IMG/VR virus record: IMGVR_UViG_3300021961_000726
Coordinates: 1-21,694 of that record
Source of the DNA: a virus
Direction: 5' to 3' (one strand)
DNA: 21,694 nt
In this document: one piece after another, positions 3,897 through 10,018 of the stretch
How positions within the stretch are numbered: the stretch's first letter is position 1
Layout: each line of letters opens with the position of its first letter
Notes under the pieces: model-generated
Seen by the model: only the letters and a program-made list of their open reading frames with translations
What the model was told of the DNA's origin: nothing
The model's database searches: none
Translations under genes and position numbers: made by a program

Positions 3897-5609
3897 TCAA
3901 CCTCCATAGTTATTCTGATGCTTGGGGTCTTGACCGATACGATCAAAACGCTCGCGCTCTTTCTTGGAAGTGATAGCACTTACAATCTTAGCAGACTTGT
4001 CTTGTGCAATCTTCTTTGCTCTACCTGTAGAAGATAAAGAAGTGCGAGCAAGATTTCCTGCACGACGATACATTCTGTTTTCTTTGTCGCGGTCAATCTC
4101 CTTGTAACCTTCTTCGATTACATTTTCAATCTCTTCAATGGAGAAGAGACCAGACTCATACAGATGTGCAATTTGCTCATACTCTTCACCAAGACGCTTA
4201 GCGAGTTTGTCACTACCGCTGGATACAGCACGAGCAGTTTTGCCAACTGCCTTCTTGATTCCTTTACCAACCAGTTTAGCAGCACTCTTGAGAGCACCAC
4301 CAACAGCCTTGCGGGTAGAACCTTTTTCAGAAGACTTAGACTTCAGGATTCCAGGACCACTGGAACCAGAAGAACTGCTGCTTTCCCCGCCACCACCAGA
4401 CTTAGAACCGCTATCAGAACTGCTGGAAGTTCCACGGGTAGACTTCAGAAGTGCATCTAACTTACCGTCAGTGCCATCGTCGTCAGAAGAAGTTTCTTTC
4501 TTTTTAGGAGGAGTCTTCTCCATAGAAGTACGTTTTGCTTTGATTCTTGCTGCTTCCTTCTCACCCTGATAGGTGCCTGCAACTTTACCAGCAGTAGAAA
4601 CAGCAGCCTTACCTGCCTTACTAGCAGCACGACCTGCCATCTTAGCACCTGCCTTAACAGCACTACCAACTTTCTTAGCAGCACTCTTAGCAGCAGACTT
4701 CATACGCTCTACTCTGGAAGGACCAGAGGGAGCACTGGATTTTTCAGCAGCAGACTTCATTGCAGAACCAGTTTCAAGTCTATCCTTTGCCTGGTCTCTG
4801 CGACGCTGAGTCTCCTTGGGGTCAACTCTCTCAGAAATAACTTCCACTTCCTCAAGTGCTTCGCAGATTTCAATGAGGTCTTGGTCATCTTCAGCAACTT
4901 CAAGAATGATTTCTTCCATGAAGTCGATGAGCTCCTCATCGGTCATAGCATCAATCTCTTCACCAAGCATTGCCAACTCTTCCCATTCTGCATCAGAGAA
5001 TGCAAATGCTTCATTCTTAGCACCAGACTTATGACGAGTTACACCTGCAGAATCAACATAGGTCTCTTTCTCACGTCTAGGAGTTACATAACCAACTCCA
5101 GGAACCGCACCCGTTTGTCCAGCATCTCTTGCAGCATTTCTTGCAGCTGCTCTTTGTGCTGCTCTCTTACGGTTGCGGTCATACTTAGCATCTTCGCCAA
5201 GAACTTCAGCATTCTTGTCGTAGTTGACGAAGTGCTCATGCTTCTCGGAGATTACAATCTCAAGTTCTTCGACGGGGACGTTTTCGTAAATCCATTCGCC
5301 ATCGGTGATGTCGTAGTGAGTTACAGTGCCATCTTCCAGCAGAGTGTGCTGCTCAGGAATGGTTTCAAACTCTTCCTTAACGCCGCCATCGGGAGCATAC
5401 TTGACAAGTTTTGCACAGTCATGACCTTTGGGTTTTGCTTTGCCACCCTTTTCGTCACGACCAACAGCACCAACAATAATGTCTGCTTTGGTTACTTTGT
5501 CATAAGGCACGGCATTATTAGCAAGATTGCCGTCTCCTTTTTTCTTTGCTTCATACATCTGCACTTGTTTCAGTGCATCTGACATATCTGGTAGGTCGTT
5601 GAGATTCAT
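3897..5609 (-). CDS. Large acidic/basic modular protein with histone H1-like Ala/Lys tracts
   Basis: A 570-residue protein with clear zones. Residues 1-140 are mixed, with MYEA at 18-21 a possible prohead-protease site. An Arg/Ala-rich patch follows (RKRAAQRAAARNAARDAG, about 148-164). About 204-262 is very acidic and helical (MTDEELIDFMEEIILEVAE). Ala/Lys-rich tracts at about 303-346 and 433-463 (KSAAKKVGSAVKAGAKMAG) resemble histone H1 tails. A Ser/Gly linker runs from 393 to 420, and a charged C-terminal helix region carries HLYES. I recognise no enzyme motif. The basic tracts suggest DNA binding and the acidic part charge neutralisation, as in a head core or internal protein. A late-type promoter at 5634-5641 supports a virion role. 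The next gene starts one base after its stop. Confidence 0.85.
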   Translation of the reverse strand: MNLNDLPDMSDALKQVQMYEAKKKGDGNLANNAVPYDKVTKADIIVGAVGRDEKGGKAKPKGHDCAKLVKYAPDGGVKEEFETIPEQHTLLEDGTVTHYDITDGEWIYENVPVEELEIVISEKHEHFVNYDKNAEVLGEDAKYDRNRKRAAQRAAARNAARDAGQTGAVPGVGYVTPRREKETYVDSAGVTRHKSGAKNEAFAFSDAEWEELAMLGEEIDAMTDEELIDFMEEIILEVAEDDQDLIEICEALEEVEVISERVDPKETQRRRDQAKDRLETGSAMKSAAEKSSAPSGPSRVERMKSAAKSAAKKVGSAVKAGAKMAGRAASKAGKAAVSTAGKVAGTYQGEKEAARIKAKRTSMEKTPPKKKETSSDDDGTDGKLDALLKSTRGTSSSSDSGSKSGGGGESSSSSGSSGPGILKSKSSEKGSTRKAVGGALKSAAKLVGKGIKKAVGKTARAVSSGSDKLAKRLGEEYEQIAHLYESGLFSIEEIENVIEEGYKEIDRDKENRMYRRAGNLARTSLSSTGRAKKIAQDKSAKIVSAITSKKERERFDRIGQDPKHQNNYGG

Positions 5610-5613
5610 TTTA

Positions 5614-6771
5614 CTAAGCGTCCTTGTCCTTTTTATTTATCTTGCGAATGAATTCACCTGGGGTGAGCTTCCTCATATAGTTAGCGAGTTTGTCTGTACC
5701 CATTTCCCCAGCAGGAGTAAAGTCAAAGAACTTAATATCATTTCTTTCAACTAAGTCTTTCAACCAAGAACGAAAAATACCATCACGCTCATCAATACTG
5801 ATGACATAATTGCTACCACGACTAACGACTTTACTAATGATCCCCGTGTTAACATTTTCTACAAAGGTGCCAACCTTAAACATTTCATTTTCAAAGTATG
5901 CTTCACGCATTCCTCTGGGGTCCAACTTAGGAGCAATCTCATGAAGTTGGAATGATGCATCCGCAAAATCATCAAACTCTTCAACCTGCATTGCTGCACG
6001 AAGAAGCATGAATAACTTCTCAGCACCATCCTTGCCAAGTGCTTTAGGAATACCCTGCTGGAACGAATCAAAGTCTCCTTCTGCTGCTGCTTTACGCATC
6101 TTAGATGCAGACATTCCTTCTACACCTTCAGCATCAGGGTCGCGGTCACCCGCACTCACCACTTTGATTTCGTCGAATGTGTATAATTCCCCGTTATATT
6201 TCTGTGCGAGACTGTTGAACTCGCTAACCCTGTCGCCTCCCACCACAATGTTAACGCTGCTATAGCCGTCATTATCGAGGGCACCGAGAACATCAAAAAT
6301 GGTACGCATGTCGCCATTATCAATAATCGCATTCGCGTGGTCTGGATATGCCATCCGCATATATTTAATTTTAGTCCCTGCGTCGAGCGGGTTCTTCTTA
6401 GGATCCTCCGACCTTGAGGGGTATATTCTATACTCTCCTCCATTTGATTTTGCCTCTCTTGCTACTTTTGCAAGAAGTTTTTCATGTCCAACAGTAGGTG
6501 GATTAAATCTTCCGAATGTAATAGATATTGCGCCTTGATCGACCTTACCCGTGCCATCTCCAGTTTCTTCTTCTCCATTCTGTTGAGTTGGCGCAGTGTC
6601 GGGATTCTTGGGGTCAACCTTTACAAGTTTTCCATCCTTAGACATATGTGTTACGTTGCCCGAAGCGTCGGCATAACGTCCGTAACCAATATGCTTAAGT
6701 TTTAAAGTCTGTGCAGCCTTTGCTGCGAAGGATTTTTCGGCTTCAGTTAGGAAAGCACTGAACTTTTTCAT
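5614..6771 (-). CDS. Nucleotidyltransferase (cytidylyltransferase fold) with capsid-targeting-like N-terminus
   Basis: A 385-residue protein. The core, about residues 82-240, is a HIGH-type nucleotidyltransferase: GRFNPPTVGH at 87-96 is the nucleotide-binding motif, VVGGDRV at 176-182 a core strand, and MSASKMRKA at 220-228 the second signature (the ISSTxxR equivalent). This superfamily includes NMN and pantetheine-phosphate adenylyltransferases and transfers NMP to a phosphate; the substrate here is unknown. The N-terminus MKKFSAFLTEAEKS closely resembles the capsid-targeting sequences of T4 internal proteins and Alt, with a possible gp21-type cleavage after L-T-E (residue 10). A linker rich in charged and polar residues runs from 40 to 80, and a C-terminal domain of about 145 residues is unassigned. 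It lies one base after the ligase-like gene. Enzyme fold is firm; packaging is inference. Confidence 0.88.
   Translation of the reverse strand: MKKFSAFLTEAEKSFAAKAAQTLKLKHIGYGRYADASGNVTHMSKDGKLVKVDPKNPDTAPTQQNGEEETGDGTGKVDQGAISITFGRFNPPTVGHEKLLAKVAREAKSNGGEYRIYPSRSEDPKKNPLDAGTKIKYMRMAYPDHANAIIDNGDMRTIFDVLGALDNDGYSSVNIVVGGDRVSEFNSLAQKYNGELYTFDEIKVVSAGDRDPDAEGVEGMSASKMRKAAAEGDFDSFQQGIPKALGKDGAEKLFMLLRAAMQVEEFDDFADASFQLHEIAPKLDPRGMREAYFENEMFKVGTFVENVNTGIISKVVSRGSNYVISIDERDGIFRSWLKDLVERNDIKFFDFTPAGEMGTDKLANYMRKLTPGEFIRKINKKDKDA
5634..5641 (-). promoter_or_regulatory. Candidate late promoter GATAAATA
   Basis: On the minus strand GATAAATA matches the T4-type late consensus TATAAATA at 7 of 8 bases. 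It lies inside the 3' end of the nucleotidyltransferase gene, 25 bases before the ATG of the 570-residue protein. An internal late promoter would raise the output of the two charged downstream proteins relative to the enzymes. The sequence is AT-rich and short, so chance cannot be excluded. Confidence 0.5.
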
Positions 6772-6772
6772 T

Positions 6773-7672
6773 CTACCAATTTTTATTAAGATTAAAGTTT
6801 GCTTTACTAAAAGTCAGTCGGTCTACGAGTTTGTAGGGATTATCAGAAACAGTTACGAAACCTTCATGTTGTGCAGGTTCCCCATCGATGTAACATTCAA
6901 CTGTTCCATTAACGATAATCGCATCGAGTAGACGCTGTTTCAGTTGGAAGATTTTATGCCACACCTTAAAGGTAGACACATTAACCTCTTCCTTATATTT
7001 ATCAGGTAACGAATTGTACATAACGGCAGCACTAGGTATCTCACCACTTCGAATGAAACTATTGATATGCTTTTTCAGTTCTGCAGAATGTGCAACCTTA
7101 CAGAAGGGAATCATTGCAACAATCTCTGCAGCAAGTTTCCACCCAAACCAATAACCAATATAGGCATCATTCGTATTTACAAAGTACACATCATTAGTGG
7201 ACTTCATCTTAACACCAAGTTTTGCCTCGGCATCAGGAGAAACTCTGCTATAACAAGTATGAGGAGCAAGAATTATTTCTTGAGTAATCTCGTGGGCAAA
7301 GTGATACTCCACAGTATTAGGATGAAAAACATTGCCCCCACCGACACCGATCCAATCAGCTTGGACAATACCACTGATGCGAGGAAGATAGCGATAACAT
7401 AACCTAAGAATATCAGCAACATTACCTTTGTGATTCTTAGCAATGTCTTCATAGGAATAGTTAATCAGAACTTTCTTCTTATTAAAAACAGACTTGGTGC
7501 CAACGAAGAACTTACCATTCTCAGGATTAGTTCCAAAAACAATAGCAGGAGCACCGTCATACTTAATACTGATGTTCCACTTTGCTGTCATTGCTTCCTT
7601 GATAGCAGCAAGTGCTACGCGACGACCATCGAAGATGGAGTCCTCCAGATGCTCAAGGTGTTTGTTCGGCAT
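6773..7672 (-). CDS. Ligase-like covalent nucleotidyltransferase-fold protein (DUF6267-like)
   Basis: A 299-residue protein. ISIKYDGAPAIVFG at about 34-47 contains K37-Y-D-G40, the lysine-nucleotidylation motif I of ATP-dependent DNA/RNA ligases and capping enzymes. FFVGTKSVFNKK (55-66) follows as expected in this family. VQADWIGVG (103-111) sits where ligase motif III lies, EGFV (270-273) matches motif IV, and YKLVDRLTFSKANF (280-293) is motif V-like. The opening HLEHLEDSIFDG and the KYDGAPA segment match what I remember of DUF6267 in T4-like phages. Activity is unproven; ligase, end-sealing or another NMP-transfer role are all open. GAGGATGA precedes the ATG, and an extended -10 promoter lies upstream. 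It is followed directly by the HIGH-type nucleotidyltransferase. Confidence 0.82.
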   Translation of the reverse strand: MPNKHLEHLEDSIFDGRRVALAAIKEAMTAKWNISIKYDGAPAIVFGTNPENGKFFVGTKSVFNKKKVLINYSYEDIAKNHKGNVADILRLCYRYLPRISGIVQADWIGVGGGNVFHPNTVEYHFAHEITQEIILAPHTCYSRVSPDAEAKLGVKMKSTNDVYFVNTNDAYIGYWFGWKLAAEIVAMIPFCKVAHSAELKKHINSFIRSGEIPSAAVMYNSLPDKYKEEVNVSTFKVWHKIFQLKQRLLDAIIVNGTVECYIDGEPAQHEGFVTVSDNPYKLVDRLTFSKANFNLNKNW

Positions 7673-7693
7673 TCATCCTCTGTCTATAAGACT

Positions 7694-7702
7694 ATTATAG
7701 CA
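7694..7702 (-). promoter_or_regulatory. Extended -10 promoter TGCTATAAT
   Basis: Minus-strand TGC followed by a perfect TATAAT gives an extended -10 element (TGnTATAAT), which host sigma70-type polymerase can use without a good -35. A clear -35 is not visible 17 bases upstream. It begins directly after the terminator hairpin at 7707-7727 and would start RNA near 7687, about 15 bases before the ligase-like gene. Confidence 0.55.
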
Positions 7703-7727
7703 GAAAGGGGGTCCGCTTAGGACCCCC
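7701..7727 (-). terminator. Intrinsic terminator after the nuclease-like gene
   Basis: Minus strand: GGGGGTCC, loop TAAGC, GGACCCCC, then TTTCT. The stem has 8 perfect pairs, but the T-tract is short, so termination may be incomplete. It lies 12 bases past the stop of the nuclease-like gene and abuts the promoter for the next unit. Confidence 0.8.
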
Positions 7728-7738
7728 TGTGTGCCAGT

Positions 7739-8875
7739 TTAAATACTGAACATTCCCGCCTGTGCCTCCAAGTAATGTCTTGGATAGAATTTATAAACTT
7801 TCTTTCCACCAGATGTTCCACTAGCCACCTCAAGTTTATATCTAATCTGCATAATAAAATATTCTTTACCTTTCATCTTTTTACCATTTTCATCTGCCAA
7901 ATAGATTTCAATCTTAGGGTCACCAGTTTTTTTCATTTCTACAGAAAATCTATGCCCCAGTAATACATTTCTAAATGCTCTGTCTGCTACTCTTGTTTTA
8001 ACTCTTCCACTACCAGCAAACTTAACCAGTTCAGTTCTAACATTTCTTGAGAGACCATAGATGATGTAATCAGCAAACTTTCTTTTTACATCAGTCTCCC
8101 CTTCAGCATTTAATCCTTCTTCTAAAATTTCCTTCGCTTTATTATAAACTACTCTTGCAGCAGCTTTTAGATTATCTCCTCCACCAGTATTTTGAGCATC
8201 TTGTCTGCTAGTATATTTTTTAGTATAAACTTCTACGTCAAAAAAGTCATTAAGCTTTTTATCATACGCTTTTTTAGATGCACTAACGTTTATTCCCATT
8301 TCTGAGAAGATGTTATCAAATTTATCAAATCCTAAACCAGAGACTTGGTGAAATTGTTCACCACCAGTAACTTTTAAAGAATAATCGACATTCCTAAATT
8401 TTCTATCGGGATGCATGGGAGAATGCACTTCAATCTTTACATCTGCCTTTGTTCCTTTTTGGTCTTCTGTTCCTGCAGCAGTTACTTTAATTTCGTCTTG
8501 ACGATTATTAATAGATAACCCTCTTGCCTGTGCATTAAGTCGTGAATGGGAGTTAGCAAATCTTACTGCACCATCACGCAAATCCGATACTTTTCCCCAG
8601 TTAGTTCTTACTTTTAAAAAGTCACTTGCTTTTTTTGGAATAGAAACACTAACAGTAACGGTATCAATCACCGCACTACCAACATCATTTACATTCTTCT
8701 TATATCCATCTTTCATCATTTCTCGCAAAACAGTATTGACATCAGATGCAGTTACTCTTGGAAGAGTTTTAGCACTTCTTTCTTTTGCCCTCTTTACAAA
8801 TCTTGCTGCTACAGCAGCAGCGAAAAATGCTTCAAACAAATCTCCTCTGTTAGCATCAATCTTCTCTGCTGCCAT
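7739..8875 (-). CDS. PD-(D/E)XK nuclease-like protein
   Basis: A 378-residue protein not recognised by name. Several features suggest a restriction-endonuclease-like fold: an N-terminal helix with a conserved-looking Glu (GDLFEAFFAAAVAARF, E15), an Asp in a strand at D145 (KADVKIEV), and about 20 residues later a strand ending S-L-K168 (VDYSLKVTGGEQF) followed by Gln-rich QFHQVSG. Many PD-(D/E)XK nucleases have this D...(D/E/S)xK layout with a Gln/His segment after it. The central metal-binding position is Ser rather than Asp/Glu, as in some S-x-K variants, so activity is uncertain. The remaining 190 residues are Lys-rich and mixed alpha/beta. Its ATG follows the upstream stop by one base. 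A terminator follows. Fold assignment is inference from motif spacing only. Confidence 0.8.
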   Translation of the reverse strand: MAAEKIDANRGDLFEAFFAAAVAARFVKRAKERSAKTLPRVTASDVNTVLREMMKDGYKKNVNDVGSAVIDTVTVSVSIPKKASDFLKVRTNWGKVSDLRDGAVRFANSHSRLNAQARGLSINNRQDEIKVTAAGTEDQKGTKADVKIEVHSPMHPDRKFRNVDYSLKVTGGEQFHQVSGLGFDKFDNIFSEMGINVSASKKAYDKKLNDFFDVEVYTKKYTSRQDAQNTGGGDNLKAAARVVYNKAKEILEEGLNAEGETDVKRKFADYIIYGLSRNVRTELVKFAGSGRVKTRVADRAFRNVLLGHRFSVEMKKTGDPKIEIYLADENGKKMKGKEYFIMQIRYKLEVASGTSGGKKVYKFYPRHYLEAQAGMFSI

Positions 8876-8876
8876 C

Positions 8877-9083
8877 TTACTCTATAGGATCGTCAAGACT
8901 ATTTAGATAATCCTTTTCATTCTGGTAGACTGTTTTCTGTCCTGACCATATCTGATACCCCTCAACAACATCAGGGATTAACCATTGGTCCACCCTATAG
9001 CAATACTTCCAGTTGGCAGGCTGAACACAGTTCAACACAACCACCTGGAAGAATGCTACTAGATGTATCCAGAGACTATACAT
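8877..9083 (-). CDS. Small membrane protein, unknown function
   Basis: A 68-residue protein starting at ATG 9083, which overlaps the 3' end of the oxygenase gene by 8 bases; a longer open frame upstream is only an alternate reading of that gene. Residues 2-20 (YSLWIHLVAFFQVVVLNCV) form a single hydrophobic segment that could be a membrane anchor or signal. The rest is polar and Trp/Tyr-rich (WKYCYRVDQWLIPDVVEGYQ). Three Cys are present. I cannot assign a function. The following nuclease-like gene begins one base after its stop, so the two are almost certainly co-translated. Confidence 0.7.
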   Translation of the reverse strand: MYSLWIHLVAFFQVVVLNCVQPANWKYCYRVDQWLIPDVVEGYQIWSGQKTVYQNEKDYLNSLDDPIE

Positions 9084-9630
9084 AATTAAACCATCCAGTA
9101 GCAATATATTTTGTTTGTGTCTTACTGATAACTCCTTTGTGCATGTGTGTCCATGCTGCAGGAAATAACACAATTGTTCCAGTTTTTGCTGGTACAATTG
9201 TATTTTGATATGGATAGCATGTACCCCCTTCGTCAGTTACAGTATTCAAATACAAAGTCCATACTAGCATACGAGCATACTGATAATCACTAATTCCTCC
9301 TTGCTCACAATGAACTGATGGATATCCTTCTCCTGGAAAGTATCTTTGTAAATTATAAGCAGAGTAAATTGACCATTTATCAAGGTTGTCGAGGAGATAG
9401 TATTTTTGTTTGTATCTAGTAACACATTCTGATAATGCTGGCAATATTAAATTTGTTACATCATCATTATTACGGATATCCATATGGATATCCGTAGATA
9501 TTTTTTCACCAAATTCAGACTTTCCTTTAATGTATAATTTATTATTTTTATCAAACCAAGAAATAATAAATTTGCAATCAGAGTCAGTTAATGAATCTGG
9601 ATATTCTTCTATAAAATTATACGTCACCAT
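9076..9630 (-). CDS. 2-oxoglutarate/Fe(II)-dependent oxygenase (HxE variant)
   Basis: A 184-residue prolyl-4-hydroxylase-type oxygenase, which would oxidise a protein or small substrate using 2-oxoglutarate and O2. Iron ligands can be placed: YPSVHCEQGG gives H107-x-E109 (Glu instead of the usual Asp), and WTHMHKGV gives the distal His (H162 or H164). The 2-oxoglutarate-binding basic residue is Lys in TKYIATGWF (K174). GTIVLFPAAW is the typical strand before the distal His. I start it at ATG 9630 (MVTYNFIEEY), where it overlaps mazG by 14 bases; the longer open frame adds residues read out of frame from mazG. It is one of three such enzymes in the window. The substrate is unknown. Confidence 0.87.
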   Translation of the reverse strand: MVTYNFIEEYPDSLTDSDCKFIISWFDKNNKLYIKGKSEFGEKISTDIHMDIRNNDDVTNLILPALSECVTRYKQKYYLLDNLDKWSIYSAYNLQRYFPGEGYPSVHCEQGGISDYQYARMLVWTLYLNTVTDEGGTCYPYQNTIVPAKTGTIVLFPAAWTHMHKGVISKTQTKYIATGWFNYV

Positions 9631-10018
9631 CCTGTCGATTCTCAGAATAGTGAACATCAAACTCACCACCAGGATAACGGGACACAAGTTTGTCCACGTT
9701 CATTTCAATAACTTCCTCAAGGGAAACACCGAGACCAATACATGCTTGGGCAACATACCACATGATGTCACCTAATTCACGCTTAAGGTGAAACAGGTTT
9801 TCTTCATTCACGGGTTTACCTTGGAAAATAATCTTCTTCACAACTTCGGTGAACTCACCTGCCTCAGCAGACATTCCTACAGCAGCAGTAAGCAGTCGCT
9901 GGGTAGGAAATCCTTCCCTTTCCAGTTGGAAGAGACGGGCGGTAAAATGAGAATAGTCCTGACTTTCTTTCGACGTGACGGCATCGACGAATTCAACATA
10001 CTTCTTAGGGTCAATCAT
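9617..10018 (-). CDS. mazG: MazG-type nucleotide pyrophosphohydrolase
   Basis: A 133-residue single-domain MazG protein. Members hydrolyse nucleoside triphosphates to monophosphates and pyrophosphate; host MazG has been linked to ppGpp levels and growth state, while cyanophage MazG has been reported to prefer dNTPs such as dGTP and dCTP. The metal-binding pattern is intact: AEAGEFTEV supplies E52-x-x-E55, and KRELGDIMWY supplies E81-x-x-D84, in two helices. The ATG overlaps the end of the helicase gene by 8 bases and the oxygenase gene overlaps its 3' end, so it is embedded in the replication operon. A role in recycling host nucleotides or altering host physiology would fit this position. Family assignment is strong. 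Confidence 0.92.
   Translation of the reverse strand: MIDPKKYVEFVDAVTSKESQDYSHFTARLFQLEREGFPTQRLLTAAVGMSAEAGEFTEVVKKIIFQGKPVNEENLFHLKRELGDIMWYVAQACIGLGVSLEEVIEMNVDKLVSRYPGGEFDVHYSENRQDGDV

Follow-up and report, generated by a model that had tools for sequence, protein, structure and literature searches.

DUF6267, a core protein of T4-like cyanophages, as a candidate polynucleotide ligase with a predicted ligase-superfamily fold

Introduction

The gene content of T4-like cyanophages raises the question of which ligase serves their replication. According to a 2010 review, the cyanomyoviruses are without homologues of T4 gp30 and rnh, save for an RNase H in S-PM2, and either distant unidentified homologues or dependence on the host may account for this (PMC2984593). 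Host LigA can provide DNA ligase activity and a phage ligase is therefore not required (PMC2984593); the corresponding domain, PF01653, is present in Synechococcus elongatus.

The locus described here lies in a viral DNA stretch of 21,694 nucleotides (IMG/VR record IMGVR_UViG_3300021961_000726), hereafter the window. A sequence-only reading of it had proposed that a ligase-like protein with a KYDG motif is a covalent nucleotidyltransferase, and that this protein and the HIGH-type nucleotidyltransferase encoded next to it could make and then use an adenylylated or capped substrate. Is the protein such an enzyme, is it functionally tied to its neighbour, and could it be the ligase that these phages appear to lack?

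The locus and its protein family

The window is part of a T4-like cyanophage that is almost the same as Synechococcus phage S-RIM50 (KU594605), to which the window aligns in two long blocks at 98.7% identity. The protein in question matches PF19782 (DUF6267) over the full length of the profile (positions 1-376 of 376, E 9.1e-96, 321.9 bits against a curated cut-off of 27 bits) and phrog_455 of PHROGs (E 1.4e-179), and it is 100% identical to its S-RIM50 counterpart. The same locus is labelled T4-GC 71 in the S-SM1 and S-PM2 records. The description of this protein as ligase-like with a KYDG motif is confirmed, as is the one-base gap to the HIGH-type gene, whose ATG is at 6771. The protein is indeed not a standard T4 DNA or RNA ligase. 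Its family already has a Pfam entry, DUF6267, which gives no function, and a literature search for DUF6267 found no mention of it. The nucleotidyltransferase fold is newly proposed here.

Table 1. Position of the features discussed, in window coordinates.
Feature	Position	Strand	Details
DUF6267 / T4-GC 71 gene	6773..7672	-	299 aa; ATG at 7672, stop ends at 6773
Motif I, K37-Y-D-G-A-P42 (KYDG = 37-40)	7547..7564	-	predicted AMP-lysine; from conservation
Motif Ia-like, FFVGTKSVFNK, residues 55-65	7478..7510	-	from conservation
Motif III-like, IVQADWIG, residues 102-109	7346..7369	-	VQADWIG = 103-109
Motif IIIa position, APHTCY, residues 136-141	7250..7267	-	H-T replaces canonical F-D
Helical insertion between motifs IIIa and IV, residues 177-251	6920..7144	-	predicted; DSSP on model
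Motif IV, HEGFV, residues 269-273	6854..6868	-	from conservation
Motif V-like, PYKLVDRLTFSKANF, residues 279-293	6794..6838	-	K281-x-V283-x-R285 instead of K-x-K
HIGH-type nucleotidyltransferase, T4-GC 190, 'cytidylyltransferase'	5614..6771	-	385 aa; PF01467, phrog_395
HIGH-type motif GRFNPPTVGH, residues 87-96	6484..6513	-	sequence and PF01467
Second nucleotidyltransferase motif GMSASKMR, residues 219-226	6094..6117	-	sequence
Capsid-targeting-like MKKFSAFLTE	6742..6771	-	predicted cleavage after E10, before A; T4-like pattern
Upstream variable-slot gene	7739..8875	-	378 aa; PD-(D/E)XK-like D-x-K-I-x(n)-Y-S-L-K; phrog_33928 / phrog_3560
Gene labelled 'cytidyltransferase' via phrog_764 and S-SM1	3897-5609	-	no Pfam domain; low-complexity, Ser/Lys-rich

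Different phages carry members of unrelated PHROG families in the slot upstream of DUF6267, and several of these have a D-x(n)-[FYC]-S-x-K pattern that looks like that of PD-(D/E)XK nucleases. In the window the block 7703-8869 (1167 bp versus 864 bp) is unrelated to S-RIM50 whereas both flanks are about 98.7% identical, a gene swap relative to S-RIM50. On the other side of the locus, the 'cytidyltransferase' name of the gene at 3897-5609 is probably a carried-over label. A match to the T4-like late promoter ATAAATA (5634-5640, minus strand) is found 25 bases upstream of that gene; the number of such matches in the window does not exceed chance (6 against 3.8 +/- 1.8 expected).

Conservation of the active site

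Relatives drawn from IMG/VR (four scans), phage records and genome contigs amounted to 234 distinct sequences, which were reduced by clustering at 80% identity to 110 and reach down to about 27-30% identity. Throughout this set K37, D39, G40 and P42 of motif I are each invariant (110/110), and the same is true of F56, T59 and K60 in the Ia-like segment, of Q104 and D106 in the III-like segment, and of H138 and T139 at the IIIa position, where Y141 is kept in 109 of 110. Motif IV is equally fixed (E270 and G271, 109/109 each). The helical insertion contains two invariant residues, N204 (110/110) and K245; the alignment shows it to be enlarged in relatives of the S-PM2 type, where the whole protein has about 100 extra residues. 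While short motifs alone could arise by chance, these are conserved across 110 clustered relatives and are therefore regarded as above chance. Lys37 and Glu270, the residues whose conservation the earlier reading had singled out for checking, show no substitution at all.

The motifs also occur in the order that had been claimed for them, and both this order and their spacing suit a covalent nucleotidyltransferase, with the exception that the last does not have the expected form. Motif V, within YKLVDRLTFS (residues 280-289), reads K-x-V-x-R and not K-x-K: K281 is invariant (108/108), position 283 holds V in 104 sequences and I in 4, and R285 is invariant (106/106). A second lysine, as in the K-x-K that is usual in ligases but not universal in the superfamily, is absent from DUF6267; R285 may stand in for it.

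Predicted fold and relation to known ligases

An AlphaFold2 model built from 60 relatives has a pLDDT of 94.1 and a pTM of 0.89; it replaced a first model from 16 close sequences in which the motif V region was poor (pLDDT 34-51). In the final model K37 terminates a strand (33-37), D106 lies within strand 102-110, H138-T139 close strand 133-141, E270 stands just before strand 271-274 and K281 is part of strand 280-282. Structural comparison with VIA-align returned only ligases or RNA/tRNA ligases among the 50 matches listed. The best of these is the RNA ligase of Naegleria gruberi, with 175 residues aligned at an rmsd of 3.9 A (Z 9.1), and the others listed include T4 Rnl1 (8.0), fungal Trl1 (7.6), T4 Rnl2 (7.4) and an RNA editing ligase (7.1). 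Lower in the list come archaeal RNA ligases and DNA ligases, with Z values as low as 5.7, those of the DNA ligases lying near 5.9 (T4 ligase structure, 5.9). The Z of 9.1 was obtained on the same candidates as a plain Foldseek search of the PDB in which no match reached E <= 0.001 (best E 0.017) and capping enzymes appeared only at E near 1. Comparison of a predicted structure with ligases and capping enzymes, which the sequence-only reading had called for, thus revealed a ligase core, and the fold together with the invariant active-site residues bears out its view of the protein as a covalent nucleotidyltransferase. DUF6267 is very probably a covalent nucleotidyltransferase of the ligase superfamily, and the model suggests that its fold is nearest to RNA ligases among the members of that superfamily.

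Sequence comparisons place the protein in none of the known families. Neither phmmer nor a 60-sequence profile found anything credible for DUF6267 among PDB sequences, searches of NCBIfam and PADLOC gave no ligase assignment, and hhalign against 12 relatives of T4 Rnl2 was not significant (probability 0.2-0.4%). The Rnl2-type RNA ligase model PF09414 has no match in the S-RIM50 genome, which contains the DUF6267 gene; PF01068 (DNA_ligase_A_M) has none either in S-RIM50 or for the window protein, and PF01653 (DNA_ligase_aden, the NMN-binding Ia domain) has none for the DUF6267 protein. Because the profile and plain Foldseek comparisons are not significant, the kinship with ligases rests on fold and motifs.

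The closest structural match illustrates both the likeness and the distance. The motif I lysine, the motif IV E-G and the motif V lysine of the nick-sealing Naegleria gruberi RNA ligase (5cou, 6vt1) align with those of DUF6267, and both proteins end just past motif V, the alignment running to model residue 295 opposite Naegleria 339 (and to 294 opposite Rnl1 252). E270 and K281 fall within 1-2 residues of the motif IV and V residues of the Naegleria ligase and T4 Rnl1. In contrast to the Naegleria enzyme, with which it shares 10% identity, DUF6267 has no N-terminal OB domain, carries a helical insertion ahead of motif IV, and has V or I in place of the second motif V lysine with an Arg two residues on. 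T4 Rnl2 has, by eye, a similar L-E-[NH] segment before motif I, but it differs in having a C-terminal domain, K-x-H-G where DUF6267 has K-x-D-G, and F-D where DUF6267 has H-T at motif IIIa. Motif III of DUF6267 has D where known ligases have E. The protein stops 6-14 residues past the motif V region, its last element in the model being helix 285-294, and the model shows a bare catalytic core into which a helical segment is inserted, with no OB or C-terminal domain. In view of these departures and of the null profile and Foldseek results, DUF6267 is placed in the superfamily by its fold and active site, but not with Rnl2, gp30 or LigA.

Genome context and a possible ligase role

In the reference phage of the window and in S-SM1, the DUF6267 gene stands in an operon between gp41/MazG and gp61/nrdA, and at distant loci its frequent neighbours include a DNA helicase (44/107) and a DNA methyltransferase (24). 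Among nine phage records with DUF6267, none has a DNA_ligase_A_M match over the cut-off or a DNA_ligase_aden match, and RNA_ligase is matched only in S-CREM1, whose weak PF01068 match overlaps its own RNA ligase gene. Ten further contigs with DUF6267 (46-173 kb fragments) gave no match to DNA_ligase_A_M, DNA_ligase_aden or RNA_ligase. That gene of S-CREM1 apart, these phages have no other recognisable ligase, while the same search of T4 as a control recovered gp30 and Rnl2 and no DUF6267.

As a core gene of the replication cluster whose product has the active site of a ligase, DUF6267 is a direct candidate for the missing ligase. The balance of the evidence tips slightly towards an ATP-dependent polynucleotide ligase of the phage replication and recombination cluster. 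Such an enzyme would charge Lys37 with AMP from ATP and Mg2+, would transfer that AMP to the 5'-phosphate at an end of, or a nick in, a nucleic acid, and would then join that end or nick, so that the phage would possess its own small polynucleotide ligase; the nick could be in DNA, RNA or a mixture of the two alike. A nick-sealing role is about evenly poised, the chief reservations being the absent accessory domain, a fold closer to RNA than to DNA ligases, and a host LigA able to do the same work. DUF6267 may stop at nucleotidyl transfer, because it is without the OB or C-terminal domain that known ligases use for end joining. The role proposed in phage replication is that of T4 gp30, from which DUF6267 differs in its length (299 aa versus about 487 aa), in the absence of OB and DNA-binding domains, and in having no detectable sequence similarity to it.

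The same fold could instead belong to an RNA-repair ligase, which like Rnl1 or Rnl2 would seal RNA ends, such as those of a tRNA cut by a host defence, and would take no part in DNA replication. Enzymes of this type are common in phages, and among the 50 structural matches listed the RNA and tRNA ligases rank above the DNA ligases. However, the neighbours of DUF6267 in two divergent groups are genes of DNA replication, recombination and modification, no annotated polynucleotide kinase stands beside it, and S-CREM1 has a separate RNA ligase in addition. A dedicated role in RNA repair is therefore considered unlikely. In S-CREM1 the annotated RNA ligase and DUF6267 genes (excerpt 963-2045, 7001-7912) are both present and the latter is away from any HIGH-type gene.

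The HIGH-type neighbour

The neighbouring protein is, as had been read from its sequence, a nucleotidyltransferase of the HIGH/T-x-G-H type. Its second motif, GMSASKMR, is intact and is also present in the S-PM2, S-SM1 and Melnitz proteins. It matches PF01467 (E 6e-6) and phrog_395 (E 2.8e-126) and takes the label T4-GC 190 from S-SM1. PF01467 is unspecific for NMNAT, however, and the NMNAT family model TIGR00482 is not reached (E 0.059; 13.4 bits versus a cut-off of 112); the substrate is not readable from the motifs. Residues 283-341 of this protein are the likely origin of the 'ribonucleotide reductase alpha subunit' labels of cyanophages (phrog_4808), no such function being evident.

Its N-terminus resembles the signal that sends internal proteins of T4 into the capsid. 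In T4, positions 4 and 7 of the targeting sequence steer targeting while 8 and 10 steer cleavage (PMC9026906), and among 20 distinct N-termini of the HIGH-type protein F4 and F7 are each found in 19, L8 in 18 and E10 in 17. As read from the T4 record, IPII and IPIII start with MKTYQEFIAE/A, like the MKKFSAFLTE/A of the HIGH-type protein (the slash marking the cleavage site); T4 internal proteins are small and basic, whereas the candidate cargo here is a nucleotidyltransferase. Homologues have been found in virions of S-SM1 (PMC3037559), are reported from those of S-SZBM1 (PMC9146016), and are reported from those of S-CREM2, for which the authors regard contamination as possible (PMC10665884). 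The S-PM2 homologue was not among the proteins detected in the S-PM2 virion (PMC3037559), and the short versions in S-PM2-like phages are without the targeting sequence. Because of the targeting-like N-terminus and the virion detection in relatives, the HIGH-type protein in the window's clade is probably an injected internal protein packed in the capsid. One other annotated gene of S-RIM50 has such a start, 99616 (a 108-aa hypothetical protein, MKSYNEFISES; excerpt 2617-2943), and is a candidate internal protein. The view that DUF6267 itself is a virion protein finds no support: it has no targeting start, save for a possible extension in Melnitz, and it is not named in two virion reports, as judged from the text for S-SZBM1 and from a table not mapped gene by gene for S-CREM2.

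The two proteins could nevertheless form a functional pair, for example with DUF6267 consuming NAD+ with release of NMN and an NMNAT-like partner remaking NAD+, or with one adenylylating a substrate for the other. Close relatives agree with this idea: at >=45% identity to the window protein the HIGH-type gene is immediately downstream in all 85 cases with enough flank, the S-PM2 lineage contains 39 contigs (and 3 partial ones) in which both are fused in a single ORF with a full length of 590-591 aa, a 764-column PHROG family spans both proteins, and in S-SCSM1 the annotation of the partner reads NMNAT. Yet in 69 of the 78 relatives of 35-45% identity that have enough flank, the HIGH-type gene is missing within at least 1 kb, and the jumbo phages K64-1 and Ettore possess it without a DUF6267 gene close by. 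The census rules out an obligatory pair: the two genes do not always occur together, and the make-then-use proposal, while compatible with the adjacency and fusion in cyanophages, finds no support as a general rule. Rather, the association is lineage-specific, strong in cyanophages and dispensable elsewhere. Because the HIGH-type protein has a targeting N-terminus and occurs in the virions of relatives, while DUF6267 is without such a sequence, it is probable that in the window's clade the two do not act at the same time. In the S-PM2 lineage the fusion still allows for a joint role; with the NMNAT identity derived from weak matches, a functional pair is on the whole rather improbable.

Three records add to the picture of this arrangement. 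In the S-PM2 reference NC_006820 (excerpt 7989-9768) DUF6267 is split by a frame difference, and in the other S-PM2 record, LN828717 (excerpt 3989-5764), as in about 40 environmental contigs, the DUF6267 and HIGH-type fusion is one open frame. A 188-kb contig from a flavobacterial isolate, Nonlabens xiamenensis NZ_RMVE01000006, has DUF6267 with a HIGH-type gene directly downstream and is probably a T4-like phage or prophage.

Other nucleotidyl transfer reactions

Equally improbable is a nucleotidyltransferase that does not act on nicks, and would instead cap an RNA 5' end or adenylylate a protein or metabolite. The bare core without accessory domains for end joining and the alterations in motifs IIIa and V would suit such an activity, but the 50 structural matches listed are without exception polynucleotide ligases, with capping enzymes confined to the weak end of the Foldseek results, and no capping-related neighbours were found. 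Less likely still is that DUF6267 founds a separate branch of NAD+-using covalent nucleotidyltransferases, or shares a substrate with its HIGH-type partner, the NMN set free by the ligase-like core being recharged by the adjacent or fused NMNAT-like domain; in the S-PM2 lineage one polypeptide would then be a self-recycling ligase. That the family is a non-catalytic scaffold keeping the ligase fold is very unlikely, as Lys37, Asp39, Gly40 and Glu270 show no substitution in about 110 clustered relatives.

Implications for cyanophage biology

The abundant T4-like phages that infect marine Synechococcus and Prochlorococcus have T4-GC 71 among their core genes. If DUF6267 is a polynucleotide ligase, it would fill a documented gap in phages that have kept the T4 replisome but are reported to be missing gp30, and it would be an unusually small enzyme of its kind, with no OB domain and with changed motifs IIIa and V, and a possible reagent. 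The HIGH-type neighbour is a separate enzyme, which in the window's clade is probably carried in the capsid and injected, and its probable status as an injected internal protein leads to a testable prediction on the early takeover of the host.
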